In this document: positions 9,547 to 60,345 of the stretch, in pieces
Numbering within the stretch: position 1 is the stretch's first letter
Layout: every line of letters begins with the position of its first letter
Source: an uncultured Massilia sp.
GTDB taxonomy: Bacteria > Pseudomonadota > Gammaproteobacteria > Burkholderiales > Burkholderiaceae
Assembly (NCBI GenBank): GCA_946481275.1
Contig: CAMLMV010000005.1
Span: 161,102 to 225,101, forward strand
DNA: 64,000 nucleotides
Direction of reading: 5' to 3'
The notes under the pieces: generated by a model
Database searches by the model: none
Seen by the model: the letters and a program-made list of their open reading frames with translations, nothing else
What the model was told of the DNA's origin: nothing
Made by a program: the position numbers and the translations under genes

Positions 9547-9594
9547 CGTGCGAAGCGGGACCGTGCACGGTCCCGTTGTCGTTTCTATCGGGCG

Positions 9595-11318: not shown

Positions 11319-11383
11319 GTCGGCCCAGTATAGCCAGCCCCGATCGCCATATCCTCACACATTATTGCGCTTACTGGCGCGGA

Positions 11384-11890: not shown

Positions 11891-11904
11891 CGCGATCTCC
11901 TGAG

Positions 11905-27418: not shown

Positions 27419-29218
27419 ATGAGAGTTCTGCGACACGGGACGCTGGCGCTGGTCGCGGCGACCACGATGGCGGCGTCATTCTGGGCACCGGCCGCGCGTG
27501 CCGCGGTGCCGGCGGGCTGGAACAACCACGGCTTCGTGCTCGACACCGCCGGCATGCAGCTGCACCAGGTGCTGGAGCGGTTCGCCCGGGAGTACGGCGT
27601 GGACGTCGTGTCCGACGTGCCGGACCGGGCGGTGAAACAGGAAACCTGGCGTGCCGGCGGCGGCGGCGAGCTGCTGGAGCGGCTGGCGCAGGCGTATCGC
27701 TTCCGCTGGTTCGTGTACGGCGACACGCTGCACGTCGTCCCGCGCGAAGACAATGTGTCGACGCGCCTCGAGCTCGGCGCGAACGCCGTGCGCGATGCCA
27801 AGGGCGTGCTGGCCGGTGTGGGTTTGTACGACAGCCGCTTCGGCTGGGTCGAACTGCCGAAGGAAGGGGCCGTCGTCGTCGGCGGGCCGCGCGAGTACGT
27901 CCGCCTGGCGCGCGAGATCCTGGTGCCGGCCCGGCCCGCGGACGCCGCGAGCGACATGCAGCCGATGGTGTTCCGCCTGAAGTACGCCGGCGCGACCGAC
28001 CGCGTGATCGCCGCGCGCGGCAGGACGGACACCATCCCGGGCGTGAAGACGATCCTGTCGAACCTGCTGGCCGGGCCGGCGGCGGGCGACGCCGTCCGCC
28101 CGCGCATCGACGCCGACCCGTCGCTGAACGCCGTCATCATCCACGACGCGGCCGGCAAGCGCGCCATGTACCAGGCACTCATCGAGCAGCTCGACGTCCT
28201 GCCGCGCCAGGTCGAGATCGACGCGCTGATCGCCGACGTCGACCGGAGCAGGCTGCCCGGGCTGGTCGGCGGCACGGCGCCCGCGGCGCCCGGGTCGACC
28301 CTGCTCGTCGACGATGCCGCCGGCCTGGTCGCCCGGCTGAAGGCGCTGGAAGCGAGCGGCGACGCGCGCATCCTGGCCACGCCGGGCGCGCTGACCCTGA
28401 ACAACGTGGCCGCCGTGCTGGACCTGCGCCAGTCGCGTTACATCCCGCTGGTCGGCGAGCGCGTCGCCGACGTGGCCGAGGTCAGCGCCGGGACGCTGCT
28501 GCGGGTCGTGCCGCGCATCGTGGAAGACGGCGTCACGAAAATGCGGCTGGACGTCGACATCGAGGACGGCAACCTGGGCAGCGGCGCCGACGCGCAGGTC
28601 ACCCGTTCGGCCCTCAGCGCGCTGGCCATCGTCGCCCCCCGGCAGATGCTCGTGATCGGCGGCTACGGGGCGGAGGCGATGTCGGGCGAACGGGCGTCCG
28701 TGCCGTTGCTGGGCAGCCTGTTCGGCCGCAAGGACACGCCGGGAACGCAGCGCGTGCGCCTGTACCTGATTGCACCGCGCCTGGCCGGCGGCACGCCCGC
28801 GCAGGCCGCCGCCGAACCCGTCGCGGCACCTCAGCCGCCCGCGCCCGCGCCTGCGCCTGCGCTTGCGCAGGCCACGCCGCCCGTTCCGGCGGCCCCGGTG
28901 GCCCCGGTCGCAACCGCCGTCGTGCCGGTCCGCGCGGCGCCCGCCGCGCCTCCGCCCGAGCCGACCTGGACGGTGCTGCAAAGCGATAAGACCCTGAACG
29001 GGACCCTGCAACGGTGGGCGGCCGGCGCCGGCTGGCAACTGATGTGGGAACTGCCCGTCGATTACGCCGTCGCGGTGCGTACGGAATTGCACGGTTCCTT
29101 TGCCGACGCCGTCGGCATGGTCGTGAAAAGCATGGAGGGAGCGGACGTGCCGATGAAGGCGATTTTCTACGACGGCAACAAGGTGCTGCGGATCGTTGCG
29201 AAAGGAACCGAACCATGA
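27419..29218 (+). CDS. Chimeric protein: type III-like secretin plus TcpQ/PilL C-terminal domain
   Basis: 599 residues with a signal peptide (1-29). Residues about 30-450 follow the SctC/HrcC plan, not the PilN plan: a first small domain (FVLDTAGMQLHQVLERFAREYG), a second (VVGGPREYVRLAREIL), then FRLKYAGATDRVI, IDADPSLNAVIIHD, RQVEIDALIADVD and a secretin core closing with LLGSLFGRKDT. The same blocks occur in the sctC gene at 58.4 kb. A Pro/Ala linker (about 455-513) leads to a TcpQ/PilL C-terminal domain (WTVLQSDKTLNGTLQRWA). The gene occupies the pilL position and overlaps pilN. The secretin core lacks some residues of full-length SctC, so pore formation is uncertain. Confidence 0.8.
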   Translation: MRVLRHGTLALVAATTMAASFWAPAARAAVPAGWNNHGFVLDTAGMQLHQVLERFAREYGVDVVSDVPDRAVKQETWRAGGGGELLERLAQAYRFRWFVYGDTLHVVPREDNVSTRLELGANAVRDAKGVLAGVGLYDSRFGWVELPKEGAVVVGGPREYVRLAREILVPARPADAASDMQPMVFRLKYAGATDRVIAARGRTDTIPGVKTILSNLLAGPAAGDAVRPRIDADPSLNAVIIHDAAGKRAMYQALIEQLDVLPRQVEIDALIADVDRSRLPGLVGGTAPAAPGSTLLVDDAAGLVARLKALEASGDARILATPGALTLNNVAAVLDLRQSRYIPLVGERVADVAEVSAGTLLRVVPRIVEDGVTKMRLDVDIEDGNLGSGADAQVTRSALSALAIVAPRQMLVIGGYGAEAMSGERASVPLLGSLFGRKDTPGTQRVRLYLIAPRLAGGTPAQAAAEPVAAPQPPAPAPAPALAQATPPVPAAPVAPVATAVVPVRAAPAAPPPEPTWTVLQSDKTLNGTLQRWAAGAGWQLMWELPVDYAVAVRTELHGSFADAVGMVVKSMEGADVPMKAIFYDGNKVLRIVAKGTEP

Positions 29219-30852
29219 TGACGACACGCTTGCGTGCGGTGCTGCCCTTGCTCCTGCTGTCGGCGTGCGGCGGCATGTCGGCCAGGCTGGACAAGACGAT
29301 CGACGACACGGGCGGGCAGGTGACCACCCTCGTCAGGGACACCGGCCACACCGCGCACGGGATCGTGGCGAAGGCGCCGTCGTCGGTCAGCCACGAATCC
29401 GGCATCTGGCTGGGCAAGGACGTCGTCAAGCTGGGCCAGCCCGCGCTGCCGAAGATTTTTTACGAGACCGCCGTGTTCGACAAGACGGTCGCGTCGCTGG
29501 CCGAGCTGGCGGAACGGATCAGCGTGCGCACCGGGCTGCCGGTGAAAGTGACGCCCGACGCGCTGGACGTCGCCGCGGCCATGCGCGGCGGGGCGGCGTC
29601 CGCAAGCGCAGCGTTGCCGTCCGGCGCGTCCGTGCCGCCGCTGCCGGGCGGCCAGCCGTCGCGCAGTGCCCCGGTCCGCATCTACTACACGAACGGCAAC
29701 CTGCGCGGCCTGCTCGACACGGCGGCGGCGCGCTTCGGCGTGTCGTGGAAGTACGCGGACGGCACGATCCGGTTCTTCCACACGGAGTCGCGCACGTTCC
29801 AGATCAACACGCTGCCCGGCGATTCGACGTTCAATGCTACCGTCACCAGCGGCGCCACGTCGAGCCCGAGTACCGGCGGTGCCGCCGGGGGCGGGGCCGC
29901 GGGGGCGGGCGGCGCGGCGGGTGCGACGTCCGGCGTGTCCGCCAACAACAGCCAGAACACGGCGGTGGCGTCCAAGCTGTCCGTCTACGGCAGTATCGAA
30001 AGCGTGATCAAGGCCATGTTGTCGAGTTACGGCAAGGTGGTCATTTCTCCGGCGACGGGGTCGATCACGGTGGTCGACACGCCCGACACGCTCGACCGGG
30101 TGGCCGCGTACGTCGAGAACGAGAACAAGACCCTCGAGCGCCAGGTGGTCATCAATGTCACGGTCCTGGCGGTAAGCCTGAACGACAGCGAGAACTACGG
30201 CATCAACTGGAACCTCGTGTACAACACCCTGCGCCGGACGTACGGGCTGACCAGTGCGCCGTTCGCAATGGACGGGACCCGTTTCTCCGCCGGCATCCTG
30301 GGCAATTCGCGCTTCGCCGGCAGCACGGCGATCATCGACGCGCTGTCGAAGCAGGGCAAGGTGCGGCGCCAGACCACCGCGTCGGTGATCACGCTGAACA
30401 ACCAGGTGGTGCCGCTGCAGGTGGCCAAGCAGACGTCGTACCTGCAGCAGTCGCAGACGACGGTGGTGCCCCAGGTCGGCACGACCACGACGCTGATTCC
30501 GGGCACCGTCACGTCGGGCTTCAACATGAGCATCCTGCCGCACGTGCTGGCCAACGGCACGGTGCTGCTGCAGTTCTCGACCGACATCTCGGCGCTGAAC
30601 ACGATCCGCGAAGTGGAGAGCGGCACCAGCAAGATCGAGACGCCGGAGATCGATACCCGCAACTTCCTGCAGCGCGTGGCGATGAAGTCGAACGAGACGC
30701 TGATCATCAGCGGGTTCGAGCAGACCGACGACAACCTCGACCGCCAGGGCGTGGGCAGCGCGCGCAATGTCGCGCTCGGCGGTGGCAGCAAGGCGGCCAG
30801 CGCCAAGGAGTCCATCGTGATCCTGATCACGCCCACCCTGGTCGGGCCCTGA
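29215..30852 (+). CDS. pilN: PilN-type type IVb pilus secretin (lipoprotein)
   Basis: 545 residues. Lipobox LLSAC with Cys18. An N-terminal domain, a Gly/Ala-rich stretch (about 220-245) and a C-terminal secretin domain (TTASVITLNNQVVPLQVAKQTSYL... LPHVLANGTVLLQFSTDISAL ... NETLIISGFEQTDDN) fit the outer-membrane secretin of R64-type thin pili. The start overlaps the preceding stop (ATGA). Confidence 0.9.
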   Translation: MMTTRLRAVLPLLLLSACGGMSARLDKTIDDTGGQVTTLVRDTGHTAHGIVAKAPSSVSHESGIWLGKDVVKLGQPALPKIFYETAVFDKTVASLAELAERISVRTGLPVKVTPDALDVAAAMRGGAASASAALPSGASVPPLPGGQPSRSAPVRIYYTNGNLRGLLDTAAARFGVSWKYADGTIRFFHTESRTFQINTLPGDSTFNATVTSGATSSPSTGGAAGGGAAGAGGAAGATSGVSANNSQNTAVASKLSVYGSIESVIKAMLSSYGKVVISPATGSITVVDTPDTLDRVAAYVENENKTLERQVVINVTVLAVSLNDSENYGINWNLVYNTLRRTYGLTSAPFAMDGTRFSAGILGNSRFAGSTAIIDALSKQGKVRRQTTASVITLNNQVVPLQVAKQTSYLQQSQTTVVPQVGTTTTLIPGTVTSGFNMSILPHVLANGTVLLQFSTDISALNTIREVESGTSKIETPEIDTRNFLQRVAMKSNETLIISGFEQTDDNLDRQGVGSARNVALGGGSKAASAKESIVILITPTLVGP

Positions 30853-30870: not shown

Positions 30871-32133
30871 ATGGCCATCCACATCATCCAGATCGAGAAG
30901 CACCGGTTCGTGTGCGGCCTGTTCTGGCAGTCGCTGTCGCGGCCGCGCGAACTGGCCCGGGAGGCGCGCGAACTGGGCGCGAAGATCGACTCCGACCTGT
31001 ACGTGCTGCGCACCGACCAGTCGATCGCGCAGGCTGGCTTCGGCCAGAGTGCGGACGGGGCGCGCCGCGGCATGTTCTCGCTGGGCGCAGTGATCTCGAA
31101 GACGCTGGCGCTCGAGGGCGCGTACTACGACGGCGAAAAGCAGCGGGTCCACAACTGGCTTGCCGCGCTCAGGCTGCCGGACGGCATGTGGGCCTATTTC
31201 GCGGCGCGCGACGCGAACTTCCTCCCCAACGGCGATTTCGCCGGCACCCGCGAGGAAGTCATGGAACGGCTGCACGGCGACTATGCCCTGGGCGGCTGGA
31301 ACGTCGTCCTCGGCGATGCGGAGCTTGCCGACTACGGCTTCCACAATTTCGAAGCGCGCACCGTCGACAGCTTCTTCCCGCACCGCAAGGACGGGCGGAT
31401 CCGCGCGCACCGCTGGTGGGGCCTGCAGCCCGTGCAGGCCCGGCGCAATGTCTGGCCGGCGCTCGCGGCGGGCGGCGCCGTGCTGGCGCTCGCCGCGGGC
31501 TGGATGTACATGCAGCACGTCCAGCGCCTGAAGGCCGAGCAGCTGGCCGAAGAGGCACGCCTCGCCGAGCGCCAGGCCGTGCTGCGGCGCGCCGCGCCGG
31601 CCGTGCAGCCGCCGCCGTGGGGCGCCAGGCCGGCGCCCGCGAGCCTGGCCCAGGCCTGCGTCGACGGGTTCGGCCGTCTGGCCGCCGGCGGCTGGCTGCT
31701 CGACGAGTACGTGTGCACCGCCGACACGGTCAGCTACGCATGGTCGCGCCACGGTTCCACCTTGGCCCTGCTGCGCGAAGAAGTGCCGGACGCCGAGTTC
31801 GACCTGAACGGCGAGAAGGCCACGCTGGCCGTGCCGCTCAAGCTCGCACGGCGCGCGCCCGAGGCGCTGCTCGAGCGCAAGGCGTTGATGGAACCAATCA
31901 TCTCCGACCTGCAACACATGGGCATTGCATTCAGGATCGCCAGCCTGCCGGCGCCCGCGGCAAAGCCGCAGGAAGCCCCTCCGCAGTGGCAGGCGTATTC
32001 GTTCAGCTGCGACAGCCAGGGGCTGTTGCCGACGGCGCTGGCCGGACTGCTCGACCGGCCCGGCGTGCGGATCGACCGGATCGTCAACCGGGCCGGTCAC
32101 TGGTCTATGGAAGGAGTCATGTATGCCAAATAA
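30871..32133 (+). CDS. pilO: PilO-type type IVb pilus assembly protein
   Basis: 420 residues. Cytoplasmic N-terminal domain (HIIQIEKHRFVCGLFWQSLSRPREL), one membrane segment (about 193-212, ALAAGGAVLALAAGWMYM), and a periplasmic C-terminal half. This is the layout of PilO in R64-like pilus clusters, where it links the ATPase and secretin. Its 3' end overlaps pilP by 11 bp. Confidence 0.85.
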   Translation: MAIHIIQIEKHRFVCGLFWQSLSRPRELAREARELGAKIDSDLYVLRTDQSIAQAGFGQSADGARRGMFSLGAVISKTLALEGAYYDGEKQRVHNWLAALRLPDGMWAYFAARDANFLPNGDFAGTREEVMERLHGDYALGGWNVVLGDAELADYGFHNFEARTVDSFFPHRKDGRIRAHRWWGLQPVQARRNVWPALAAGGAVLALAAGWMYMQHVQRLKAEQLAEEARLAERQAVLRRAAPAVQPPPWGARPAPASLAQACVDGFGRLAAGGWLLDEYVCTADTVSYAWSRHGSTLALLREEVPDAEFDLNGEKATLAVPLKLARRAPEALLERKALMEPIISDLQHMGIAFRIASLPAPAAKPQEAPPQWQAYSFSCDSQGLLPTALAGLLDRPGVRIDRIVNRAGHWSMEGVMYAK

Positions 32134-32629
32134 ATCCCTCTGGTGCGCCGTGCTCGTGCCGCTGCTCGGCTGCGCCCACGCATATGCCGATCCCACTGCG
32201 GAAAAGCTGAGCCGGATCGAAGGCGAGACGCTGCTGCTGAAGGCGCGCGAACGCCAGCTCGACGTCCAGGGCAGCATCCTCATGAAGCAGAACCAGATCG
32301 CGACGATCCAGGCGGCGACCAGCGCGCTGACGCATGCGCCCGGCACGGGCGACCCGCAGGTGCGCAGCGTGGAGGGCGTGGGGCGCGCGGTGTTCGCCAC
32401 GCTGCAGCTGGGCGACGGCGGCGTCATCGAGGTGCAGCCCGGCGACATGCTGCCGAAAGGGATGCAGGTCGTGTCGATCGCGCCGGGCAACGTCATCGTC
32501 AGGAAAGGCAGGCAGCGGGTCCGGCTCGCTCAGGCGGCGCCGCCCCAGCAGCAATACGGAGCCGCGCTGCCCGCCGCCCCTGCCATTCCCGGCCCGCCGC
32601 CGGGCATGCCCGCGGGAGCCGCGCGATGA
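32123..32629 (+). CDS. pilP: PilP-type type IVb pilus protein
   Basis: 168 residues with a signal peptide (1-22) and a helical stretch (LSRIEGETLLLKARERQLDVQGSILMKQNQI) then a small C-terminal domain (GVIEVQPGDMLPKGMQVVSIAPGNVIV) as in PilP. The tail is Pro/Ala-rich. The ATG is inside the end of pilO and the stop overlaps the next start (ATGA). Likely a periplasmic alignment protein. Confidence 0.8.
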   Translation: MPNKSLWCAVLVPLLGCAHAYADPTAEKLSRIEGETLLLKARERQLDVQGSILMKQNQIATIQAATSALTHAPGTGDPQVRSVEGVGRAVFATLQLGDGGVIEVQPGDMLPKGMQVVSIAPGNVIVRKGRQRVRLAQAAPPQQQYGAALPAAPAIPGPPPGMPAGAAR

Positions 32630-34179
32630 GCGTGCTCGCGTTGGACCGTACGGAACAGCGCGACATCGGCTCGGCCGTCGTGCTGAGCAATTCGGGCACG
32701 TTCGAGGCCAGCGCCGAGGAGCGCAAGCTGCTGTGCCTGCTGAGCGACGGCCGCCTGCTCGTCGCCGAGGGCCAGAACCTGAACCGCCACGTGCTGTCGT
32801 ACATCGCGCGGCTGGAAAAGATGCGCCGGCCGTTCCAGGTGACGTTCGCCCGGATCGAGGTCATCGCCCGCGCCTACCAGGGCGGCGGCGCGGGGGCCCA
32901 GCCCCAGCACGAACACTCGCTCATGCAGGTGACGGCCAAGGACTTGCTGAACCGGGCCTGCCAGGCGCGCGCGTCCGACATCCACATCCGCGTCCGCAAG
33001 GATTGCACCGAGACGTGGTTCCGCATCCACAACGACCTGGTGCCGAAGGGCGTGCAGACGCGCGAATACGGCGAGCGCCTGCTGGCGACGCTGTACGGGG
33101 CGATGACGTCCGTGTCCGACAACTCGTACAAGCCGATGGAACGCCAGGACGCGGCGATTTCCGACCGCGACAAGCTGCCGCCCCGGCTGTACGGCGTGCG
33201 CATCGCCACCGCGCCGACCAGCGAAGGCGCCGTCATGGTGCTGCGCCTGCTGTACAACGACGCCGGCGACAACGTCGACCTGCGCCCGCTCGGCTTCAGC
33301 GACATGCACGCGTGCCTGCTCCAGCAGATCAAGGAACAGCCGGTGGGGATGAACATCATCAGCGGCCCCACGGGATCGGGCAAATCGACGACGCTGCAGC
33401 GCATCTTGAGCGGCGAAATCATCGAAGCGGGCGGCAAGCTGCACGTGCTGACCGTCGAAGACCCCGTGGAATACCCGATCGAGGGCGCGGTGCAGACGGC
33501 CGTGACCAATGCCTGCACGGAGGCGGACCGCGCGCGCCAGTTCTCGGCCGCGATCTCGAACGCGATGCGGCTCGATCCCGACGTCATCATGATCGGCGAG
33601 ATCCGCGATGCCGCGTCGGCGCAGAACGCCCTGCGCGCATCGATGACGGGCCACCAGGTGTGGACGACCGTGCACGCCAACAGCGCGCTGGCGATCGTCG
33701 ACCGGCTGCTCGACCTCGGCCTGCCGCTGAGCCTGGTGGCGGACCACACGATCATCACGAGCCTGATCAGCCAGCGCCTCGTCAAGGTCCTGTGCCCGCA
33801 CTGCAGCCGGCCGCTGGTCGACACGCCGGATGCGCTGCCGCCGGCAATGTATGCCCGCGTGCGGCAAGCGGCGGGCGGCGCGCTGCCGCGCGTGCGCGTG
33901 ACCGGTGGCGGCTGCGAGCATTGCGCCATGCAGGGCACGGTGGGGCGCTCGGTGCTGGCGGAAGTCATCGTGCCGGACGCCCAGTTCTTCAAGTTCATCC
34001 GGGCCGGCGACAAGTGCGCGGCGGTCGCGTACTGGCTCGAGCACCTGGACGGGCGCACGATGCTGGGCCATGCGATCGACAAGGTCGCGGCCGGCGAGCT
34101 CGATCCGCGCATGGCGGAAAAAGTGGTCGGCCACCTCGCGGGGCCGGGATGCCGGCTGGAGGCCATCCATGCGGTTTGA
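32626..34179 (+). CDS. pilQ: PilQ-type secretion ATPase (GspE/PilB family)
   Basis: 517 residues. It drives pilus extension from the cytoplasm. Walker A GPTGSGKST (about 246-254), Asp box VEDPVEYPIEG, Walker B DVIMIGEIRD, and the His box ASMTGHQVWTTVHANSA are complete. A CPHC...CEHC pair (about 386-430) supplies the tetracysteine metal site of extension ATPases. It overlaps its neighbours on both sides. Confidence 0.92.
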   Translation: MSVLALDRTEQRDIGSAVVLSNSGTFEASAEERKLLCLLSDGRLLVAEGQNLNRHVLSYIARLEKMRRPFQVTFARIEVIARAYQGGGAGAQPQHEHSLMQVTAKDLLNRACQARASDIHIRVRKDCTETWFRIHNDLVPKGVQTREYGERLLATLYGAMTSVSDNSYKPMERQDAAISDRDKLPPRLYGVRIATAPTSEGAVMVLRLLYNDAGDNVDLRPLGFSDMHACLLQQIKEQPVGMNIISGPTGSGKSTTLQRILSGEIIEAGGKLHVLTVEDPVEYPIEGAVQTAVTNACTEADRARQFSAAISNAMRLDPDVIMIGEIRDAASAQNALRASMTGHQVWTTVHANSALAIVDRLLDLGLPLSLVADHTIITSLISQRLVKVLCPHCSRPLVDTPDALPPAMYARVRQAAGGALPRVRVTGGGCEHCAMQGTVGRSVLAEVIVPDAQFFKFIRAGDKCAAVAYWLEHLDGRTMLGHAIDKVAAGELDPRMAEKVVGHLAGPGCRLEAIHAV

Positions 34180-35245
34180 CGTCTCCCGCGCCTGGGCGAA
34201 GACCCAGTTCTCGGCATCGGCGCGCGTGCGCCTGTACCGCAAGATCGCCAAGATGCTCACCAACGGCCTGCCGCTGCTGCGGATCCTGGAAGTCCTGCGC
34301 GAACGGGCGTCGGACAATGGCCGCAAGCCGCAGGAGCCGCTGGCGATCGTGCTGGACGACTGCCGCCGCCAGGTGCAGAACGGCAGGATGCTGTCGGAAA
34401 GCCTGGAAGGCTGGGCGCCCCGGCCCGAGCGCATGATCCTGCTGGCCGGCGAACAGTCCGGCAACGTGGAGGCCGCGCTGCTGGCCGTCGTCGACGTCGT
34501 GCAGGCGCAGCAGCGCATCAAGGGCGTGATCGTCGGCGGGCTCGTCTACCCATGCGCGATCCTGGCGCTGATCCTCGTCTACGTCTACCTGTTCGGCACG
34601 CGGGTGATCCCCGAGTTCACCCGCATCACCGACCCGACCACCTGGCATGGCGCGGCCCGGTCGCTGTACGTCATGTCCGAGGTGGTCCAGCACTGGATGG
34701 TCGCCATCGTCGGCGTGCTGGTGCTCGTCGCGGGCTGCATCGCGGCGGCGCTGCCGCGCTGGCGCGGCAACCTGCGCGTGTTCGCCGACCGCTTCGCGCC
34801 GTTCTCGATCTACCGGCTGGTCGTCGGCAGCGGCTTCCTGCTCGCGTTCTCGGCCTTGCAGACGGCCGGGGTCACGGTCGAGAAGTCGCTCAGCCGCCTG
34901 TCCGACATGGCCGACCCCTGGCTGCGCGAACGCCTCGACGGCGCGCTGCTGGGCGTGCGCTCGGGCCTGAACTGCGGCGAAGCCATGCGCAACGCGGGCT
35001 ACGGTTTCCCGTCGGCCGAAGTGATCGACGACCTGTGCGTATATGCCGAGTTCCGCGGATTCGGCGAGGCGCTCAAGGTGCTGGCCGACGAATGGCGGGA
35101 GGAGGGTATCCAGCAGATTTCCAATCAAATGAAGATCCTGAACGGCGTCGCCATCCTCGTGATGGCGGCCGTGATCGGCTGGCTGGTGACGGGTTTCTTC
35201 GGCATCCAGCACGAACTTGCAACGATGACACGCGCAGTACATTGA
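34169..35245 (+). CDS. pilR: PilR-type inner-membrane platform protein (GspF family)
   Basis: 358 residues with two GspF domains and three membrane segments (about 115-138, 176-196, 330-350). The ATG is 8 codons inside the end of the ATPase gene. It docks the extension ATPase and is the assembly platform for pilins. Confidence 0.88.
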   Translation: MRFDVSRAWAKTQFSASARVRLYRKIAKMLTNGLPLLRILEVLRERASDNGRKPQEPLAIVLDDCRRQVQNGRMLSESLEGWAPRPERMILLAGEQSGNVEAALLAVVDVVQAQQRIKGVIVGGLVYPCAILALILVYVYLFGTRVIPEFTRITDPTTWHGAARSLYVMSEVVQHWMVAIVGVLVLVAGCIAAALPRWRGNLRVFADRFAPFSIYRLVVGSGFLLAFSALQTAGVTVEKSLSRLSDMADPWLRERLDGALLGVRSGLNCGEAMRNAGYGFPSAEVIDDLCVYAEFRGFGEALKVLADEWREEGIQQISNQMKILNGVAILVMAAVIGWLVTGFFGIQHELATMTRAVH

Positions 35246-35267: not shown

Positions 35268-35810
35268 ATGTTTGCTACCAAGCACCAACGCCGTGCCCGC
35301 CTCGCCCGCCTGCACCGCCAGCGCGGCGCCTCGCTGCTGGAAGCCATCGCCTACCTGGGCGTCGCCGCCATCGTGGTGCTGGCCGCGATATCGCTGCTGC
35401 AGGGGGCTTTCGGCGGCGCACGGTCGAACCAGTTCATGGAAGAGATCACGGGACTGCGCACCGCCGTGCAGAAGATGTATGCGGGCCAGTCGTACGACGA
35501 TGCCACCATGGTGGCTAACTTGATCACGGCGAAAGCCATTCCCGGCACGCTGACGATCGGCAACAGTAATGCCATTACCAACGCGTGGGGTGGAAAGGTG
35601 ACTGTTGCGAAGGTGGACGGGGCAAGTTTCAGAATCACCTATGAAAGCGTGCCGCAGGACGTGTGCATGAACGTCCTCACCGGCGCGTCGGGCTGGACCA
35701 GGATTGCCGACGGGGCCGACACCAACGCGATTACCGTTTTCCCCGTCACTGCGGCCGGCGCTGCGGCGTTCTGCAAAGCGTCGACCACGATCGCGTTCAC
35801 GTCAAACTGA
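35268..35810 (+). CDS. pilS: PilS-type type IVb major pilin
   Basis: 180 residues. A long basic leader (about 22 residues, RLARLHRQRGASLLE) is cut after Gly, leaving A-S-L-L-E with the +5 glutamate, then the hydrophobic assembly helix (AIAYLGVAAIVVLAAISLL). Two Cys near the C-terminus (DVCMN, AAFCKA) should form the D-region disulfide. SD AAGGAG. No prepilin peptidase is encoded nearby. Confidence 0.92.
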   Translation: MFATKHQRRARLARLHRQRGASLLEAIAYLGVAAIVVLAAISLLQGAFGGARSNQFMEEITGLRTAVQKMYAGQSYDDATMVANLITAKAIPGTLTIGNSNAITNAWGGKVTVAKVDGASFRITYESVPQDVCMNVLTGASGWTRIADGADTNAITVFPVTAAGAAAFCKASTTIAFTSN

Positions 35811-35820
35811 GCCTGAGTCA

Positions 35821-36312
35821 ATGTGGGCCGTCCTGATCATGGTCGTCGTGGTCGCGCTGGGCGGCTGGTACGGCTGGCCGGCCGAACAGGAACGCGAGGC
35901 CGTGGCCGAGCAGCAGGCGAACGACGATGCCGCGACCATGGGCATCTACCGGGAAGCGGTGATCGCCTGGTTCAAGGCGAACAACGTCACCGACGCCAGC
36001 GCGAGCCTGGCCGACCTGAAGGCGGCCGGCGTGCTGCCGGCGTGGTCCAGGCTGGCGACCGGTGCCACGGCAACCTGGACGAACTACCGCGACAGCGCGG
36101 GGCAGATCTACATTTTCCCCGCCGCGGTCGGCACGCGTCCGATCCTTGCGGAACTGCTGGCGCTGTCGCGCAACTCACTCAACGTCGGCACCTACCGGGC
36201 GGCGGACCATACGCTGTCGTCGCCCGTGGACGGGACGCGCATCGCGCTGCCGCCGCTGGGCGACGCCGTCATCCCGGACGGCGCCCCGGTGTGGCTGGCG
36301 CACTGTGATTGA
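35821..36312 (+). CDS. pilM: PilM-type type IVb pilus protein
   Basis: 163 residues. N-terminal membrane segment (1-20, MWAVLIMVVVVALGGWYG) and a compact soluble domain (AVIAWFKANNV...GVLPAWSRLATGATATWTNYRD) as in PilM of R64-like clusters. Its place after pilS, rather than before pilN, differs from the R64 order. Role in biogenesis is known only as essential in conjugative thin pili. Confidence 0.75.
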   Translation: MWAVLIMVVVVALGGWYGWPAEQEREAVAEQQANDDAATMGIYREAVIAWFKANNVTDASASLADLKAAGVLPAWSRLATGATATWTNYRDSAGQIYIFPAAVGTRPILAELLALSRNSLNVGTYRAADHTLSSPVDGTRIALPPLGDAVIPDGAPVWLAHCD

Positions 36313-36322: not shown

Positions 36323-37579
36323 ATGAACACGATGCGGCGGCAGCGCGGCATGACCCTGGTCGAAGTCCTGGCGGCGCTCGCCATCGCGTCGGCGCTGCTG
36401 GTCGGCCTCTCCACCATGATCGGCGATTCGATCGACGAAGTGAGGGAACAACAGGCCGCCCTGCAGCAGGCGCAGGTCGTGGCGGCCGCGTCCCGGTATC
36501 TTGCGGCGAATTACAGCGGCCTCGTCACCAGTACGAACGGGGGCGCCGTGACGGCCGTCACCGTGGCGCAGCTGAAAACGGCGGGCTTCCTGCCGGCAGG
36601 CTTTGCCGCGACCAATCCGTACCAGCAATCCGCGTGCGTGCTGGTGCGCCAGCCCACGCCGGGCCGGCTGGACGCGCTCGTGGCCGGCTACGGCGGCACC
36701 GCGATCCCCGACCGCGCCATCGCGGCGGTGGCCATGATGGCGGGGCAGGGCGGCGGCTACGTCAGCGCCGCGCAGCCCGGCAAGGCGCGCGGGTCGTCGT
36801 GGGAACTCGCCACGGCGGCATACCAGGGCGTGGCGTGCGGCGGCGCGACGGTCCTGAACGGTACCGCCGGCCACGATGGCGGCCACCTCGTGTCGGGCCT
36901 GTTCTACGACGGGCCGGGCCAGTTGTCGACGGACTTCCTCTACCGCGACACCGTGCCCGGCCGGCCGCAACTGAACCGGATGAACACGCCGCTGGGATTC
37001 GCCGGCGCCGCCCTGGTGACGTTGGGAACGGCATGCGGCGGCGCGGCGGCCATCGGAATCGACAGCGCCAGCAGGGCGGTGGCGACGTGCGGGGCCGACG
37101 GCAAGTGGCAGTCGGTGTCGACGTGGAAGGCGCCGGTGACGAATTTCGCCGACCTGCCCGCGACGGGCAACACGGTGGGCGACGTGCGGATAGTCACCGC
37201 GCTGAACCGCGGCTTCACCTACAGCGGCAGCAAGTGGGTGGCGCTGGCCGCCGACGAGAAGGGCGACCTGCACGTGCCCGGCACGGTGTACGGGGACACG
37301 GCCGTCGTCAGCGGCGGTCCCGTGACGGCGGAAACGACGGTGACGTCGAACCACGGCGGGATCAAGGGCGACTGGGTGGTCGGCAGAACGTGGGTGGAGG
37401 GCCCCACGCTGTATCTCAACGCAGCCGTCGCGCCGGGTACGCCCTGCAATATCCTGAATCCGGACGGCAGCACCACGTACAACATCGGCTCGTTCAAGAA
37501 GGATGCGAACGGCGTCCTGATGTCGTGCCAGCCGCCGGACAATGTCTTTAAATATATGAATGGAACGTTGACCCCATGA
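36323..37579 (+). CDS. pilV: PilV-type minor pilin / tip adhesin
   Basis: 418 residues. A prepilin leader (RRQRG cut before MTLVEVLAALAIA) precedes the N-terminal helix. The long C-terminal part follows the R64 PilV plan (VTNFADLPATGNTVGDVRIVT, then GDTAVVSGG... GGIKGDWVVGRTWVEGPTLYLN). In R64 this part is varied by a shufflon; no repeat set or recombinase gene is visible here, so it is fixed. Stop overlaps the next start. Confidence 0.88.
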   Translation: MNTMRRQRGMTLVEVLAALAIASALLVGLSTMIGDSIDEVREQQAALQQAQVVAAASRYLAANYSGLVTSTNGGAVTAVTVAQLKTAGFLPAGFAATNPYQQSACVLVRQPTPGRLDALVAGYGGTAIPDRAIAAVAMMAGQGGGYVSAAQPGKARGSSWELATAAYQGVACGGATVLNGTAGHDGGHLVSGLFYDGPGQLSTDFLYRDTVPGRPQLNRMNTPLGFAGAALVTLGTACGGAAAIGIDSASRAVATCGADGKWQSVSTWKAPVTNFADLPATGNTVGDVRIVTALNRGFTYSGSKWVALAADEKGDLHVPGTVYGDTAVVSGGPVTAETTVTSNHGGIKGDWVVGRTWVEGPTLYLNAAVAPGTPCNILNPDGSTTYNIGSFKKDANGVLMSCQPPDNVFKYMNGTLTP

Positions 37580-38025
37580 GCGGCACCTTCACACCGCGCC
37601 AGGCGGCGGCCGTGCTCGCGTGGGCGCTCGCCTGCGGCCCCGCACACGCATGCTGGGACGATGCCGGCGCGCGCTACGGCGTGAACCCCTACCTGCTGTA
37701 TGCCATCGCCAAGACGGAATCGGGCCTGAACCCCGCCGCGATCGGTCCGAAAAACAAGAATGGGACGTATGACATCGGGCTCATGCAGATCAACAGCAGC
37801 TGGCTGCCGACGCTGCGCCAGTACGGCATCGGCGAGGCCGAGTTGATGGATGCCTGCACGAACATCCAGGTCGGGGCGTGGATCCTGTCGGGAAAGATGC
37901 AGAAGCTGGGCAATTCATGGACCGCCGTCGGCGCCTACAACGCCGGCAAGCCCGAGCTGCGCATCGCTTACGCAAAAAAAGTCTATCGCAACTTGCCGCG
38001 CGCGGCCCTCGAGGCCCGGCCCTGA
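37576..38025 (+). CDS. PilT-type lytic transglycosylase
   Basis: 149 residues with a signal peptide (1-25) and an SLT domain. The catalytic Glu48 lies in AIAKTESGLNPAAIGP, and DIGLMQINSSWLP and VGAYNAGKPE follow. It opens gaps in peptidoglycan for pilus assembly. This is the R64 pilT equivalent, not the retraction ATPase also called PilT. Confidence 0.88.
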   Translation: MSGTFTPRQAAAVLAWALACGPAHACWDDAGARYGVNPYLLYAIAKTESGLNPAAIGPKNKNGTYDIGLMQINSSWLPTLRQYGIGEAELMDACTNIQVGAWILSGKMQKLGNSWTAVGAYNAGKPELRIAYAKKVYRNLPRAALEARP

Positions 38026-38093
38026 TCGGCTTGCACCCCATACATCATTGTTGAGACGTTTGCGCGGCCGCGCGCATGACCTTGGAAGTTGAT

Positions 38094-39863
38094 ATGAAAA
38101 CGATTTCATCGGCGGTGAGACCGCTCGGCGACAGCCCGGCTGCCGAAACCGCGTCCAATGCCAAGCCCCAGACCAGTCGCGCATCCAGGCGCACGTTCGG
38201 ATTCGCCTTGCCGGTGCCGGGTCGGCGCCCCAAGACACAGCCGCCGGCGGCGCACGTGCAGGCACCGTTGCAGCGGCTGGAACAGTTCAGCGCCCGTCAC
38301 GCGCAGGCGCAGGGGCCGGCGCGGGTCACGCTGGCGGAGCTGATGCGTACCGAGGAGCGTACGACGCTGGCGGACCTGATGCGGGCGGATGACGCAGCCC
38401 GCGCGGCGCCCGCGCCCGCGCCCGAGCCGGAGCCCGCGCGCACGGAGGCCGCGCCGGCCGCGCGTCCGAAGTCGTTCGGCAAACTGGCGTCCGGTCCGAA
38501 GATCGATTGCATGGCGGACACGCTGACGTCGATCCACCGCCTGGACGACCAGCAGGTGTCGCAGATCACGGAAGCTCTCGGCATGGGACCCGCCGCAGCG
38601 CCGGGCCGCGAACGGGACGCGCAGTTGAAGGCCGCCGGCCGCCTGCTGCGCGCGCCGCTGGATTGCCAGCCTCCCATCCCGGACAGCGGGTCGATCGGCC
38701 GGACGCAGTTCGGCCGGGGCATGCCGCCCGACGTGCTCGCCTCCCTGTCGCGGGCGGCGAGGGCGGCCAATTGCTTCATCAGCGAGCGCCAGGTCACCGG
38801 CCCCGACGGGAAGACGGTGAACCTGCTGCAGGTGCATTTCGCGAACCGGGCCGACCAGGAAGGCGAGCCGCTCGCGTCCCAGCCGGAGTCGGCCAGCTTC
38901 GTTGCCGTGCAACGGCTGGCGGCGCGCTTCGCCGAGGCGCTGTCCCCGATACTGCGGACCGACGACAGGGAGTTCCGGATCGAGCACGTGGCATGCTTGC
39001 GCACGCAGGGCGGCAGCGCCGACGTGTTCACGGAACAGCTCGCCCAGCACATGCCGATGACCTACCGGCCGCCGAGTACGGAACTGACTTCCCAGCATTA
39101 CATGGGCGCGGCGATCCGCACGTCGCGCCTGTTCAACCTGCTGCCCGCTGCCGACCGGGAAAAGCTGGTGCGTGCGGCCCACGTCGCCCACATGGTCTGG
39201 GACGAAAAGGTTGGCGTGGACGAGCACGGCAACCAGCGGCTCGAGGTGCGCGTGATGTTCGGCGGCACGCAGAACATGCGCGACGTCCGCCAGGCCTTCA
39301 GCAGCATCGGCCAGTCGGTGGGCAAGGTGTTCAAGGCAAATCACGAGGCTGCCGTGCTGGTGGCGCAGGCCATCGAGGCCGCCCAGGCCAAGACGCGCAA
39401 CGTGAAATTCGACTTCATCGCGGGCGGATCGATGGGCGGCGCGACCGCGCAACTGTTCGCCGCCGCGGTCGAGAGCCGCGTGAAACTGCACGACCCGGCG
39501 CCGCTGATCCTGTTCGACCCGCAACTGCCGAACGAGGCCCAGGCCAAACATGCCATCAAGGACGGCAAGCTCGGCTACGACTATGCCAAGCCGCGCGGCA
39601 TCGCCGTCACGCTCGACTATGCGGAGCGCTCGCGCAAGAGCCTGATGGGCCGCATGAAGGGGATCGGCTTCAAGTCGCCGGGCCTCGTGCGCCTGAAGCT
39701 GGGCCTGAGCGCCTACGACCGGACCAAGCACCTGCCCGACGGCGGGACGGACATGCGACCGCCAAAGACGTCCGGGCCGCCGGGCATGGGCTACCATGCG
39801 GATCCGGGCCTGTACAGGATGGCTATCAACCGGTTCACCGGGTTGGTTGGGTTGCGACGCTGA
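38094..39863 (+). CDS. Putative class 3 lipase-like secreted effector
   Basis: 589 residues, no signal peptide. The first about 130 residues are disordered, basic and Pro-rich, with a near-repeat LAELMRTEERT / LADLMRADDA. The C-terminal half looks like a class 3 lipase: FGGTQN (389-394, where lipases have FRGT) and GGSMGGATAQL (444-454) with nucleophile Ser446. An acid and His partner are not assigned. The layout of an N-terminal targeting arm plus hydrolase is that of a type III or type IV effector, but no hrpII box precedes it. Start at 38094 (GGAAG) instead of 38076. Confidence 0.6.
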   Translation: MKTISSAVRPLGDSPAAETASNAKPQTSRASRRTFGFALPVPGRRPKTQPPAAHVQAPLQRLEQFSARHAQAQGPARVTLAELMRTEERTTLADLMRADDAARAAPAPAPEPEPARTEAAPAARPKSFGKLASGPKIDCMADTLTSIHRLDDQQVSQITEALGMGPAAAPGRERDAQLKAAGRLLRAPLDCQPPIPDSGSIGRTQFGRGMPPDVLASLSRAARAANCFISERQVTGPDGKTVNLLQVHFANRADQEGEPLASQPESASFVAVQRLAARFAEALSPILRTDDREFRIEHVACLRTQGGSADVFTEQLAQHMPMTYRPPSTELTSQHYMGAAIRTSRLFNLLPAADREKLVRAAHVAHMVWDEKVGVDEHGNQRLEVRVMFGGTQNMRDVRQAFSSIGQSVGKVFKANHEAAVLVAQAIEAAQAKTRNVKFDFIAGGSMGGATAQLFAAAVESRVKLHDPAPLILFDPQLPNEAQAKHAIKDGKLGYDYAKPRGIAVTLDYAERSRKSLMGRMKGIGFKSPGLVRLKLGLSAYDRTKHLPDGGTDMRPPKTSGPPGMGYHADPGLYRMAINRFTGLVGLRR

Positions 39864-39944: not shown

Positions 39945-41039
39945 ATGTCCGACGATTTTTCGATATCCCGTGAATTACTGGAGGAGCTGATCTCCCTCGT
40001 CAATTCTGGCCAGAGCTTCTCGGATATTCATATCGAGCAGGACATGCCCGTGATGATCAAGTCGCCCCGCGGGTGGCGCCAGGTCGGCACGGAGCCGGTC
40101 ACGCTCGAGGACATGCTGCCCGTGCTGAACGCCATCGACGAGGATTGGGAAGACAAGATCGTCGAAAGCGCGATCGACCGGCCGTTCATCCTCACCGACT
40201 ACCGGCTGCGCTGCAACGTGTTCCGCTCCTCGTCCGGCTCGAAGACCACCATTTCGATCCGGCGCCTGCCGCTGCGGCCCATCGCGCTGGACCAGACAGG
40301 CCTGCCGCACTACGTCAAGACCGTGCTCGAGGCGACCCGCGGGATCATCCTGATCACGGGACCGACCGGCTCGGGCAAGACGACGACGATCGCCTCGATG
40401 CTCGACCAGATCAATGCGACGCGCAGCGCCCACATCATCACGATCGAGGAGCCGATCGAATACCAGCTGCAGCGCAAGCAGTCGATCGTCTCGCAAAAGG
40501 AAGTCCCGACCGACACGGCCACGTTCTCGTCCGGCCTGCGCGAGGCGCTGCGCCAGAAGCCGGACGTGCTGATGGTGGGCGAGATCCGCGATTTCGACAC
40601 GGCCGACACCGTCCTGCACGCCGGCGAATCGGGCCACCTCGTCCTCGCGACGATGCACACCAACAGCGCCGTCAGCGCCATCTCCAAGCTGCTGGGGTTC
40701 TTTCCCGCCGAACAGCGCGAGCAGCGCGCGGCCGGGCTGGCGAATTCCCTGGTCGCGGTGATTTTCCAGACCCTGTTGCCGAACGAGCAGGGCGACGACG
40801 TCGTACTCGCCTATGAAATGGTGTTCAACAACAACCAGCAGGTGGCGCCGTACATCGCCGACCCCGGCAAGCTGCACCTGATCGCCGACTTCATGCGCCG
40901 CAAGGAAGACAGCATGTCGCGCAGCCTGAACGACGTCCTCGTGCAACTGATCGCGAAGAAGGCGATCAACGTGAAGGATGCCATGCGCGCCACCTACAAC
41001 CGTCTCGAGCTGCACGAGATGGCCAACGCCAAGCGCTGA
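39945..41039 (+). CDS. PilT/PilU-type pilus retraction ATPase
   Basis: 364 residues. Walker A GPTGSGKTT (about 142-150), Asp box IEEPIEYQLQ, Walker B DVLMVGEIRD and the GHLVLATMHTNSA His box; the AIRNLIRE retraction motif is not seen. R64-type thin-pilus clusters normally lack a retraction ATPase, so this addition is notable. It follows the lipase-like gene by 81 bp. Confidence 0.88.
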   Translation: MSDDFSISRELLEELISLVNSGQSFSDIHIEQDMPVMIKSPRGWRQVGTEPVTLEDMLPVLNAIDEDWEDKIVESAIDRPFILTDYRLRCNVFRSSSGSKTTISIRRLPLRPIALDQTGLPHYVKTVLEATRGIILITGPTGSGKTTTIASMLDQINATRSAHIITIEEPIEYQLQRKQSIVSQKEVPTDTATFSSGLREALRQKPDVLMVGEIRDFDTADTVLHAGESGHLVLATMHTNSAVSAISKLLGFFPAEQREQRAAGLANSLVAVIFQTLLPNEQGDDVVLAYEMVFNNNQQVAPYIADPGKLHLIADFMRRKEDSMSRSLNDVLVQLIAKKAINVKDAMRATYNRLELHEMANAKR

Positions 41040-41063: not shown

Positions 41064-41126
41064 TTCGCACGCGGGCGCGCCGCTTCGCCCGGCCCCGCCC
41101 GCCGGCGGCTCATGTTCCGTCATCCT
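41064..41126 (+). promoter_or_regulatory. hrpII/PIP box and -10 upstream of HrpW-like gene
   Basis: Perfect TTCGC-N15-TTCGC (41064-41068 and 41084-41088). A CATCCT (YANNNT) -10 at 41121-41126 is 32 bp downstream, as for PIP-box promoters. The ATG at 41167 follows 41 bp later. Confidence 0.85.
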
Positions 41127-41166
41127 GTAGAGGGATCCTCCCTCAACCAACCTTACGGGTATCGAC

Positions 41167-42147
41167 ATGAGCACGTGCGTGCATTCCCATTATTCCCCAC
41201 AGGCTTTTTCCAACTTTCCCAAGCCCCCGGCCGGGCCGTCGCCGCAGCAGCAGACGGACGACTGGGTCAAGCGGCTCGAACACCTGTCCGTCAAGCTGAA
41301 GCAGCAGGCCAGGGACGACGATCACGTGCACCGGCCCAAGCGCAAGGCGCACGTGGAGATGACCCATGACGACGCCGACGGCGAACCGGAAACCAAGCGG
41401 AAGAAGACCTCCAGCCCGCCATCGAACACCAGCGTGCCCGGCGGCGCCAAACCGGAACGCGGCCAACCCATGCCGAAGCCGACCGGCATCGTCGACGTCG
41501 ACAAGCCCATCATCGTGAAGGCCGGCGAGACCTTCGACGGCGGCGGCAAGTACTACCGGCCGACGAAGGCGATCGGCGACGGTTCTCAAAATGAGCACCA
41601 GCTGCCCGTCTTCATCCTCGAGCCGGGGGCGACGCTGAAGAACGTCCAGTACTCGGGCGGCGACGGCATCCACCTGATCGGCGACGCCAGGCTCGACAAC
41701 GTCGTCAACCGCGACATCGGCGAGGACGCCATCACGATCGACGGCGAGAAGAACCGCATCCACGACGCGAAGCTGTCCGGCATGTCGCTCGACGACATCC
41801 CGAAAGGGCCGGCGAAGGTCGTCATCACGAACAGCTCGTTCTACAACGGTTCCGACAAGGTGGTGCAGGACAATGGCGACGCCGACGTGCTGATGAAGAA
41901 CGTCTACGTCAACGGCGCCGGCAAGCTGTTCCGCACGAACGGCGGCCAGCCGATCACGACCAGGCTGACGGTGGAGGATTCGACGTTCGAGAACGTCAAG
42001 GAATCGCTGTTCCGCACGGACTCGAAGACGTCGAGCGCCAGTTTCTCGAACGTCGACGATGGCGGGATGAAGGTGGTGGCATTGACGCCGGATGCCGCGC
42101 AGGTCAGCGGAACCCGCAAGGTGTCGTACAAGCCGTATTCGGGGTAA
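41167..42147 (+). CDS. HrpW-like type III-secreted pectate lyase (PL3 type)
   Basis: 326 residues. The first about 110 are hydrophilic, Pro/Lys/Ser-rich and disordered, as in harpin-like leaders. The rest is a parallel beta-helix of the PL3/HrpW kind: FILEPGATLKNVQYSGGDGIHLIGDARLDNVV, then GEDAITIDGE and NSSFYNGSDKVVQDNGDA. No signal peptide. HrpW proteins are secreted by type III systems to act on plant cell-wall pectate or bind it; whether this one is catalytic cannot be read. It lies at the system's end under a perfect hrpII box. Confidence 0.8.
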   Translation: MSTCVHSHYSPQAFSNFPKPPAGPSPQQQTDDWVKRLEHLSVKLKQQARDDDHVHRPKRKAHVEMTHDDADGEPETKRKKTSSPPSNTSVPGGAKPERGQPMPKPTGIVDVDKPIIVKAGETFDGGGKYYRPTKAIGDGSQNEHQLPVFILEPGATLKNVQYSGGDGIHLIGDARLDNVVNRDIGEDAITIDGEKNRIHDAKLSGMSLDDIPKGPAKVVITNSSFYNGSDKVVQDNGDADVLMKNVYVNGAGKLFRTNGGQPITTRLTVEDSTFENVKESLFRTDSKTSSASFSNVDDGGMKVVALTPDAAQVSGTRKVSYKPYSG

Positions 42148-58401: not shown

Positions 58402-60345
58402 ATGCGTCCATCGACTCCCGCACGCCGCCGGCCCTCGCGGCTCGCCATGTTCCTGGCGGCCGCGTCCGCCGTCGCGGCCATGACCGCATCATCGCCCGCC
58501 CACGCCGAGCGCATTCCCTGGCAAAGCAACCGGTTCGAATACGTCGCCGACCGCAAGGACCTCAAGGACGTCCTGCGCGATTTCGGCGCCAGCCAGCACG
58601 TGATGACGTGGATCTCGCCGCAGGTCGAGGGCAACGTCACCGGCCGCTTCAACAGCCCGCCGCAGCAATTCCTCGACAAGATGGTCGCCTCGTTCGGCGT
58701 GCTCTGGTACTACAACGGGGCCGTGCTGCGCATCTACGGTCCCAACGAGGCGCGCACCGCCACGCTGGGCCTGCAGCATGCGGGCACCGCCGAGCTGCGC
58801 CAGGCGCTGGCCCGGCTGCAGATCGAGGATCCGCGCTTCCCGGTGCGCTACGACGACGTGTCGCGCACGGCCGTCGTGTCGGGGCCGCCGCAGCTGGTGG
58901 ACCTCGTCAGCGACGTCGCGCGCCTGATCGACCATGTCCAGGTCAAGGGCGACACCGTGGTCGTGCGGCGCTTCCCCTTGCGCTACGCATCGGCCACCGA
59001 CAAGACCATCACGATCAATGGGCGCAGCGTCAGCGTGCGCGGCGTCGCCGGACTGCTGCGCGGCCTGTACGGGCAGGCCGCCCCGGGCGCCGGCACGGAG
59101 CCGGCGCCGGCGCGGCGCGACGCCTACCGGCTGCCGAGCATGCGCGAGACCCAGGACGACGCGGTCGGACGCCAGCCCGGCAACCGGGTGCCGCCGCTGC
59201 CGGCGCTGTCCGGGCTCGGCGCCGTCACGCCGCCCGCCGCGCTGCCGGCCGGTGCGCCGGCCGGCGCATTGGCCGGCGCACCGGCCGGTATGCCTCCCGG
59301 GCTGCCGTCCGGGTTGCCTGGGCCGGTGCGCGCACAGGACGAGGAGCGCGCGCCGGCGCAGGCGGCCGGACCGTCGATCGAAGCGGACCCGCGCGGCAAC
59401 GCCATCCTCGTGCGCGACCGCGTCGAGAACATGGCCGCCTACGCCAGCCTGATCGAGTCGCTCGACATGCGCCCCGGCGTGCTGGAGATCGACGCGACCA
59501 TCATCGAAGTCACCGACAACGCCCTGAGCGAACTGGGCATCGACTGGCGCCTGCACACGGGCCACCTCGACCTCCAGACCGGCAACGGCCAGCTGCCGCA
59601 GGCGGGCAACCCGGACTCGCTCAATCCGGGCGGCTTCGGCGTCTTTCCGGTATCGGGGGCGTTGCCCGCCACGCCCCAGGGCGGCGTGCTCACGACGGTA
59701 ATCGGCAACGCGGGCAAGTACCTGCTCAACCGCATCAGCGCCCTGCAGCAGAAGGACCAGGCGCGCGTGACCGCGAACCCGCGGGTCGAGACGCTCGACA
59801 ACGTGGAAGCGCTGATGGACAGCAAGAAGACGTTCTACGTGCAGGTGGCCGGCTACCAGTCCGCCGACCTGTACAGCGTATCCGCCGGCGTGTCGCTGCG
59901 CGTGCTGCCGTCGATCGTCACGGCGCCCGGCGGGGCGCAGCAGATCCGCATGGACGTGCACATCGAGGACGGCAAGCTGACCACCCAGCAGGTGGGGCAG
60001 CTGCCGGTGGTGAGCAACAGCACCATCGACACGCAGGCCCTGGTCAACGAAGGCGAGAGCCTGCTGATCGCGGGCTATTCCGTCACGCAGGACGACAACA
60101 CCGAAACGGCGGTGCCGGGCCTCTCGAAGCTGCCCGTGATCGGGGACCTGTTCCGCTATCGCAAGCACGAAGGGCAGCACTATCAACGCATGTTCCTGCT
60201 GACGCCGCGGGTGCTGTCGCCGGCCATCGGCGGGGTCGGCGCGGCGGAAAGCGCGCGCCAGGCCGCTGCCGCGCCGCAGCCTGCTCCCAAGCCGCGCCTG
60301 GCTTGCCGCATGAAGCGCGCAGCCGTGCCCGTGGCTGCGCCCTGA
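58402..60345 (+). CDS. sctC: SctC (HrcC) outer-membrane secretin
   Basis: 647 residues. Signal peptide (1-36). N-terminal domains (LKDVLRDFGASQHVMTWISPQV; TAVVSGPPQLVDLVSDVARLID), a Pro/Ala/Gly-rich insert (about 240-315), then the secretin core from IEADPRGNAILVRDR to PGLSKLPVIGDLFRYRK. It forms the outer-membrane ring. The sequence blocks run parallel to the pilus chimera at 27.4 kb. Confidence 0.95.
   Translation: MRPSTPARRRPSRLAMFLAAASAVAAMTASSPAHAERIPWQSNRFEYVADRKDLKDVLRDFGASQHVMTWISPQVEGNVTGRFNSPPQQFLDKMVASFGVLWYYNGAVLRIYGPNEARTATLGLQHAGTAELRQALARLQIEDPRFPVRYDDVSRTAVVSGPPQLVDLVSDVARLIDHVQVKGDTVVVRRFPLRYASATDKTITINGRSVSVRGVAGLLRGLYGQAAPGAGTEPAPARRDAYRLPSMRETQDDAVGRQPGNRVPPLPALSGLGAVTPPAALPAGAPAGALAGAPAGMPPGLPSGLPGPVRAQDEERAPAQAAGPSIEADPRGNAILVRDRVENMAAYASLIESLDMRPGVLEIDATIIEVTDNALSELGIDWRLHTGHLDLQTGNGQLPQAGNPDSLNPGGFGVFPVSGALPATPQGGVLTTVIGNAGKYLLNRISALQQKDQARVTANPRVETLDNVEALMDSKKTFYVQVAGYQSADLYSVSAGVSLRVLPSIVTAPGGAQQIRMDVHIEDGKLTTQQVGQLPVVSNSTIDTQALVNEGESLLIAGYSVTQDDNTETAVPGLSKLPVIGDLFRYRKHEGQHYQRMFLLTPRVLSPAIGGVGAAESARQAAAAPQPAPKPRLACRMKRAAVPVAAP

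Follow-up and report, generated by a model that had tools for sequence, protein, structure and literature searches.

Proteins of the PilL/TcpQ/BfpG kind end in a TcpQ domain and are encoded directly before pilN in pilus operons. The literature on these proteins is split, since TcpQ is reported to be required for the stability and the outer-membrane localisation of its secretin TcpC, whereas BfpG is reported to be required for the multimer but not for localisation (accessible part of PMC4971541). In PDB entry 9u5s, entitled BfpBG complex, there are 17 BfpB and 17 TcpQ-family chains. The amphipathic helical loop on the lip has been described, in work on InvG, as the best conserved stretch of sequence among secretins, and a central role in associating with, inserting into and spanning the membrane has been proposed for it (excerpts of PMC6155069). 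The adjacency of injectisomes and type IV pili is already known, because the hrp/hrc genes of Herbaspirillum seropedicae have been reported as contiguous with type IV pilus genes, and a genomic island was suggested (excerpts of PMC3093359). Finally, the Kil pilus of Myxococcus co-localises with a needleless T3SS* and the two are thought to form a larger complex (accessible part of PMC12075869). We found no published account of a fusion between an SctC-type secretin and a TcpQ domain in the open-licence PMC literature.

A secretin-TcpQ fusion heading a type IVb pilus operon

The window analysed here (64 kb of DNA from an uncultured Massilia sp.) has a type IVb pilus operon adjoining an injectisome cluster. 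The first gene of the operon is a single open frame without interruption, with AGGGGA immediately 5' of its ATG (Table 1). In its product, SctC-like N0, N1 and N3 domains and a secretin core are joined by a Pro/Ala linker to a C-terminal TcpQ domain. The Pfam profiles identify Secretin_N in two stretches, then Secretin at residues 309-455 (56 bits, cut-off 27.5) and TcpQ at residues 516-594 (89 bits, cut-off 27). The NCBIfam model of SctC, TIGR02516, gives 293 bits (cut-off 238), compared to 59 for GspD, 54 for PilQ and 19 for MshL, and the PilN model is absent from the NCBIfam matches of the protein. The TcpQ domain also matches the "Lipoprotein" chain of PDB 9u5s (E 1e-6). Hence, the N-terminal half scores as SctC, well above GspD, and the C-terminal half as TcpQ; neither a better score as PilN or GspD nor a frameshift joining two genes was found. 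The in-frame combination described in the initial annotation is therefore confirmed, as is the separate PilN secretin behind it, since the stop of the fusion gene and the start of pilN overlap by 4 bp as ATGA. At the N-terminus, a structure model predicts a helix at residues 3-21, followed by what seems by eye a cleavage-like site, and no lipobox is apparent there.

Table 1. Features of the pilus operon, the fusion gene and the resident sctC in the window
Feature	Position	Strand	Remarks
SctC-type secretin + TcpQ fusion gene (putative variant PilL)	27419..29218	+	599 aa
N0-N1 periplasmic domains, T3SS-secretin fold	27524..27931	+	residues 36-171
Secretin_N region / N3	27968..28210	+	residues 184-264
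Secretin core with reduced lip	28208..28789	+	residues 264-457
Shortened segment after first core strand	28247..28297	+	residues 277-293, 17 aa
Degenerate lip segment	28667..28756	+	residues 417-446; VPLLGSLF in place of VPxLGxxPxxGxLF
Pro/Ala linker	28790..28960	+	residues 458-514
TcpQ domain	28964..29200	+	residues 516-594; PF10671
pilN, type IVb pilus secretin	29215..30852	+	lipoprotein-like N-terminus (by eye); TIGR02520 484 bits; BfpB match E 2.6e-42
pilO (PAP_PilO)	30871..32133	+	Pfam
pilP	32123..32629	+	named from position; Pfam matches sub-threshold only
pilQ, assembly ATPase (T2SSE)	32626..34179	+	
pilR, inner-membrane platform protein (T2SSF)	34169..35245	+	
pilS, major pilin	35268..35810	+	
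pilM-like	35818..36312, start approximate	+	PF07419 26.1 bits, cut-off 25
pilV (Shufflon_N)	36323..37579	+	N-methylation motif
Lytic transglycosylase (SLT)	37576..38025	+	
PilT-like ATPase	39945..41039	+	Pfam T2SSE; PilT is a name given in this analysis
Resident sctC of the injectisome cluster	58402..60345	+	TIGR02516 491 bits

The protein thus resembles PilL, TcpQ and BfpG in its C-terminus and gene position, and differs from them in that its N-terminal part is an SctC-derived secretin of 430 aa. In other PilL-like frames, inspected by eye, the signal peptide is accompanied by a linker or by a small domain at the N-terminus. With the SctC of the Duganella/Herbaspirillum class (TIGR02516) it shares the order N0-N1-N3-secretin. 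Unlike these proteins, it has a shorter N3 loop and first core segment, an incomplete lip motif and a TcpQ domain, and its gene sits in the pil operon, without a cognate injectisome in the carriers searched.

Two observations concern the surroundings of the operon. Between it and the PilT-like gene lies the gene of a 595-aa protein (38076-39863), which has counterparts at 72% and 85% in two Massilia genomes and no Pfam match at E 0.01; its GGSMGG stretch resembles what we take to be a serine-hydrolase elbow. A second PilT-like ATPase, 75% to that of the window, is found in Massilia rhizosphaerae (L012:2158-3234), past that end of the injectisome cluster where sctC lies.

The resident injectisome cluster, at about 45-60 kb, comprises sctR, sctQ, sctV, sctU, sctJ, sctN, sctT and sctC, each above its NCBIfam cut-off. 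It also has an HrpB1 match, above the Pfam and below the NCBIfam cut-off, and an HrpB4 match below its Pfam cut-off, from which we take the gene set to be of the Hrp2 kind. The hrpII-like pattern TTCG-N16-TTCG occurs 7 times in the window when 2.85 are expected (4 of 100 shuffles reach 7), and the version with N15 3 times when 3.26 are expected. In the stretch 41064-42147, one N16 box precedes by about 80 bp a gene whose product has a pectate lyase domain behind a match-less N-terminal stretch, an arrangement resembling HrpW. Another hrpII-like box (51040-51063) lies near the divergent starts of sctU and hrpB1 and has one letter changed in M. rhizosphaerae (L012). None was found in the 64-kb window upstream of the fusion gene or of the pilus operon, and co-regulation of this operon through such boxes was rejected on this basis.

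Distribution and origin of the fusion

A protein search resulted in 259 matches at E ≤ 1e-10 among 7996 scored candidates sharing most words, of which 120 were listed. Among the matches listed, at least 13 further proteins (P0002-P0014, 587-632 aa) carry all three Pfam families, with best local identities to the window protein of 73-96%; some may belong to the same species as the two Massilia genomes described below. One more listed match, P0020, is a partial fusion. A scan of species genomes was seeded on two words of the TcpQ domain, so that fusions with other letters there would escape it. It revealed four loci: two full fusions, a stand-alone TcpQ in Root335 and a locus of Duganella radicis matching residues 1-459 of the fusion at 62%. 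The two fusions are open frames in Massilia sp. Root335 (587 aa) and M. rhizosphaerae NEAU-GH312 (631 aa), and synteny with the window extends over about 4-40 kb in the former and about 13-64 kb, the stretch compared, in the latter. In a sample of 392 genomes of the same family, 69 have TcpQ matches (79 in total), and the two Massilia fusions are the only ones in frames of more than 600 aa. SctC-like matches were found in 265 plasmid records, none covering 80% of the fusion, and 70 pattern matches in virus contigs included no relative of it.

Both Massilia genomes also encode a second, stand-alone TcpQ protein (Root335 L004, about 9806-10243; M. rhizosphaerae L013:9808-10047, minus strand), around which the pil proteins of the window have no match at E 1e-8. 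In Root335 it sits downstream of a 1384-aa frame that to us resembles a large effector-type protein.

The initial annotation had likened the first half of the protein to the sctC of the same window. The SctC type is borne out, whereas the resident gene is rejected as its parent: the secretin half is only 31% identical to the resident SctC over the core and 55% and 63% identical, over two stretches, to the SctC of the Duganella/Herbaspirillum class. A tree of 38 rows, with 10 of the 14 fusions, places these 10 in a single clade (100/99) nested among the SctCs of Duganella type. P0121 and the resident SctC, used as outgroup, have long branches and uncertain positions. The sister of the fusions, with a common stem of 0.6, is P0015, a protein of 481 aa which shares their core loss and lacks TcpQ. 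It could be a pre-fusion stage or a cut gene.

To see where such a secretin may have come from, we refer to the surroundings of 60 hand-picked TcpQ matches out of the 79, each covering 20 kb or, for two that reach a contig end, 17 kb. Of these surroundings, 40 contain a close type IVb operon, with PilN at ≥400 bits. In 27 of these 40 close loci, a Duganella-type sctC (≥300 bits) lies upstream of TcpQ on the same strand, the distance to the TcpQ domain being 512-2008 bases in 26 loci and 6.9 kb in the remaining one; in two more of the 40, it is on the opposite strand. The fetched stretches of the remaining 11 contain none, and among these genomes G102 has one about 25 kb away and G035 one far off. 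Since sctC is just upstream of TcpQ and on the same strand in 26 of 40 related pilus loci, an adjacent sctC and pilL were probably fused. That the fusion unites two genes adjacent in many relatives is a point absent from the initial annotation. A distant TcpQ/PilN pair in L104 (G041, 9340-12083) lies directly beside an sctN-like gene of a T3SS-type ATPase, 57% to that of the window, and is a further case of pilus and injectisome genes side by side.

Root335 and M. rhizosphaerae each have one SctV, 95% to that of the window. They also have two more FHIPEP proteins, roughly as far from one SctV class as from the other, which we read as putative flagellar FlhA. Neither a Duganella-class SctC other than the fusion nor an SctV to match it was found in these two genomes of unstated completeness. 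The simplest history would start from a joint island, in which sctC and pilL fused; the old injectisome would then have been lost, and one of Hrp2 type now flanks the other side; this order of events is inferred.

Losses and selection in the secretin half

We compared 14 fusions with 48 intact SctCs, a set that excludes P0015, whose core is cut back in the same way, and L004, a short row. The loop of the N3 region has 11-22 residues in the fusions and 52-93 in intact SctC. The segment after the first core strand is 14-17 residues long in all 14 fusions and 38-40 in the 48 intact proteins, so that about 21 residues are missing throughout. The lip segment, of 36 residues in 48/48 intact SctCs, has 17 in four fusions, 30 in seven and 35-36 in three (P0012-P0014). 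No fusion has the full lip motif [VIAL]P.LG..P..G.LF, which is found in 44 of the intact SctCs and, once T is allowed at the first place, in all 48. Its second half (LLG.LF-like, as VPLLGSLF) is kept in 10 of the 14 fusions and gone in four. The gate regions and N0-N1-N3 remain alignable, and about 430 residues are retained.

We identify VPxLGxxPxxGxLF with the amphipathic helical loop of InvG, an assignment based on an alignment to InvG. If it is right, the secretin half of the fusions likely no longer inserts into the membrane; this falls short of proof because 10 of 14 keep half of the motif and 3 of 14 a normal lip length. The suggestion of the initial annotation that this is a secretin that lost its pore is thus supported by the deleted core segment and the never complete lip motif, and tempered by the retained half motif. 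Its docking collar would likewise fit the shortened core and the incomplete lip. Structure models add little: that of the fusion has a pTM of 0.38, with block means of 28-81, most of them below 60 from residue 321 on (the barrel and TcpQ being weak), and that of an intact SctC likewise has a pTM of 0.38, the barrel being resolved in neither. A small hairpin predicted in the intact SctC (362-365, 371-375) is absent from the fusion model, in a region of low confidence.

Selection on the parts was estimated with the Nei-Gojobori method among the window, Root335 and M. rhizosphaerae. The ratio dN/dS is 0.14-0.18 for TcpQ, 0.19-0.26 for PilN, 0.21-0.43 for the linker, 0.27-0.40 for the core secretin and 0.41-0.50 for the N rings, the least constrained folded part. 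The resident SctC has 0.29 (one pair), and a 37-codon piece of N3 gives 0.15, 0.71 and 1.66, being too short for use. The secretin half is constrained, though less than TcpQ, a pattern compatible both with a working collar and with a slowly relaxing relic.

Possible roles of the fusion protein and parallels in other pili

The explanation that we favour, by a little over even chances, is that the fusion is a variant PilL that arose by a merger of sctC and pilL in a joint injectisome/type IVb-pilus island, in which TcpQ serves PilN and the non-inserting SctC half is a periplasmic collar. The domain scores, the overlap with pilN, the core and lip losses, dN/dS and the origin from neighbours would all be in line with it. 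The signal peptide would carry the protein to the periplasm, where the TcpQ domain would do the usual job of PilL/TcpQ/BfpG on the PilN secretin. The SctC half may still build the N0-N1-N3 rings and the base of the secretin barrel, without insertion into the outer membrane, and would then form a collar under or around PilN and no second pore. If the TcpQ end binds PilN as in the BfpB/TcpQ-family pair, an equal number of SctC-derived parts would be placed below or around PilN.

The main rival, which we regard as unlikely yet serious, is that the SctC half is a tolerated relic of a replaced injectisome, giving only a signal peptide and a spacer to TcpQ, the working part. The long stem below P0015 and the fusions, the varying extent of the loop and lip deletions, and the failure to find any other member of the donor class in the two Massilia carriers would all suit a relic, as would the N rings, whose dN/dS is well above that of TcpQ. 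Against a relic stand the about 430 residues retained, with N0-N1-N3 and gate regions alignable. We prefer the working collar because the constraint on the core is about that of the resident SctC, while noting that the N-ring values are also compatible with a relic.

Other pili seem to have taken up parts of SctC. When the SctC parts were compared by Blast to 58 TcpQ frames (53 of them taken from the 60 loci, plus 5 others, with the M. rhizosphaerae fusion represented by its end only), three matched. One is the Root335 fusion; the other two are the short proteins L061:9513-10208 and L083:9943-10626 (minus), in which an SctC N0 domain precedes TcpQ. These two proteins are 36% identical to each other and score 54 and 45 bits with TIGR02516 over N0, below the whole-protein cut-off as expected for a single domain. 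With the L061 protein as query, 20 matches were obtained, of which 18 (P0124-P0141) carry both PF10671 and PF21304. The proteins of this group are like the fusion in having an SctC-derived N-terminus on TcpQ, and differ in that it is N0 only. The N0 of L061 and L083 is closest to SctC of Hrp2 type, while the above-cut-off SctC of their genomes belongs to the Duganella class, opposite to the situation in the window.

A further parallel is found in Burkholderia stagnalis (L005), where T3SS genes accompany a pilus operon whose TcpQ gene is unfused. A separate SctC-like protein (L005:7916-9379, P0121; 137 bits, below the cut-off, and no Pfam Secretin match) is encoded 1.6 kb before the TcpQ gene, with an ATPase gene on the opposite strand in between. 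It scores 118 bits to the SctC of its own genome and 66 to the fusion. The lip segment of this family has 23 residues in 11 of 11 aligned rows (the query and 10 of the 120 listed) compared to 51 residues for three SctCs, whereas its first core segment shows no clear shortening (51-109 versus 67-90). This family resembles the fusion as a lip-less SctC-like protein, encoded in B. stagnalis near type IVb pilus and T3SS genes, and differs in being a separate gene, with PilL unfused. Among the matches listed, its relatives come from several Burkholderia species. Together, these cases hint at a repeated uptake of SctC modules by pili, with two or three origins and no rule. A bolder version, which we hold to be doubtful, is that the lip-reduced type III secretin ring is a second gated collar beneath PilN, and that injectisome-adjacent type IVb pili repeatedly adopt SctC ring modules (whole in Massilia, N0 only elsewhere, a lip-less gene of its own in Burkholderia) as a docking part shared by the two machines.

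The initial annotation had also proposed a bridge between pilus and injectisome. In the form considered here, SctC-derived rings would dock the pilus on the inner-membrane ring of the injectisome to give a single contact device. Pilus and injectisome are indeed adjacent in the window and in 29 of the 40 close loci, as they are in print for H. seropedicae (PMC3093359), a further group of proteins also has an SctC N0 attached to TcpQ, and the Kil system is a precedent of a type IV-filament pilus working with T3SS parts (PMC12075869). That system has a Tad pilus, its T3SS* is described as secretin-less, and no fusion is mentioned in the accessible part of its description. The bridge is nevertheless weakened, since no other SctC or SctV of the fused class was found in the two Massilia genomes. 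The fused SctC differs in class from that of the resident injectisome, a mismatch that is reversed in the two genomes with N0-TcpQ proteins, and the lack of an hrpII-like box upstream of the operon speaks weakly in the same direction. We thus consider a bridge improbable.

A second working secretin pore in the outer membrane is more improbable still, because the core segment is shortened in 14/14 fusions and the lip motif is never complete, four fusions being nearly lip-less; a full PilN secretin also follows, and the Secretin domain above the Pfam cut-off, the kept gate regions and the half lip motif of 10/14 fusions are what such a pore would have in its favour. A pseudogene, frameshift, chimera or misassembly can be discounted almost entirely, as the frame is open in the window and in the two named genomes, the same architecture is found in 13 further database proteins and dN/dS is below 1 for each larger part.

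These results describe a machine part changing machines: a ring protein of an injectisome has become part of a pilus assembly protein, probably through the fusion of adjacent genes, and the changeover was accompanied by damage to the element thought to insert the ring in the membrane. If the collar is true, secretin rings can function without spanning a membrane, and the fusion would make it possible to test directly why the genes of injectisomes and of type IVb pili are linked in many genomes of the family, and also in Burkholderia stagnalis.
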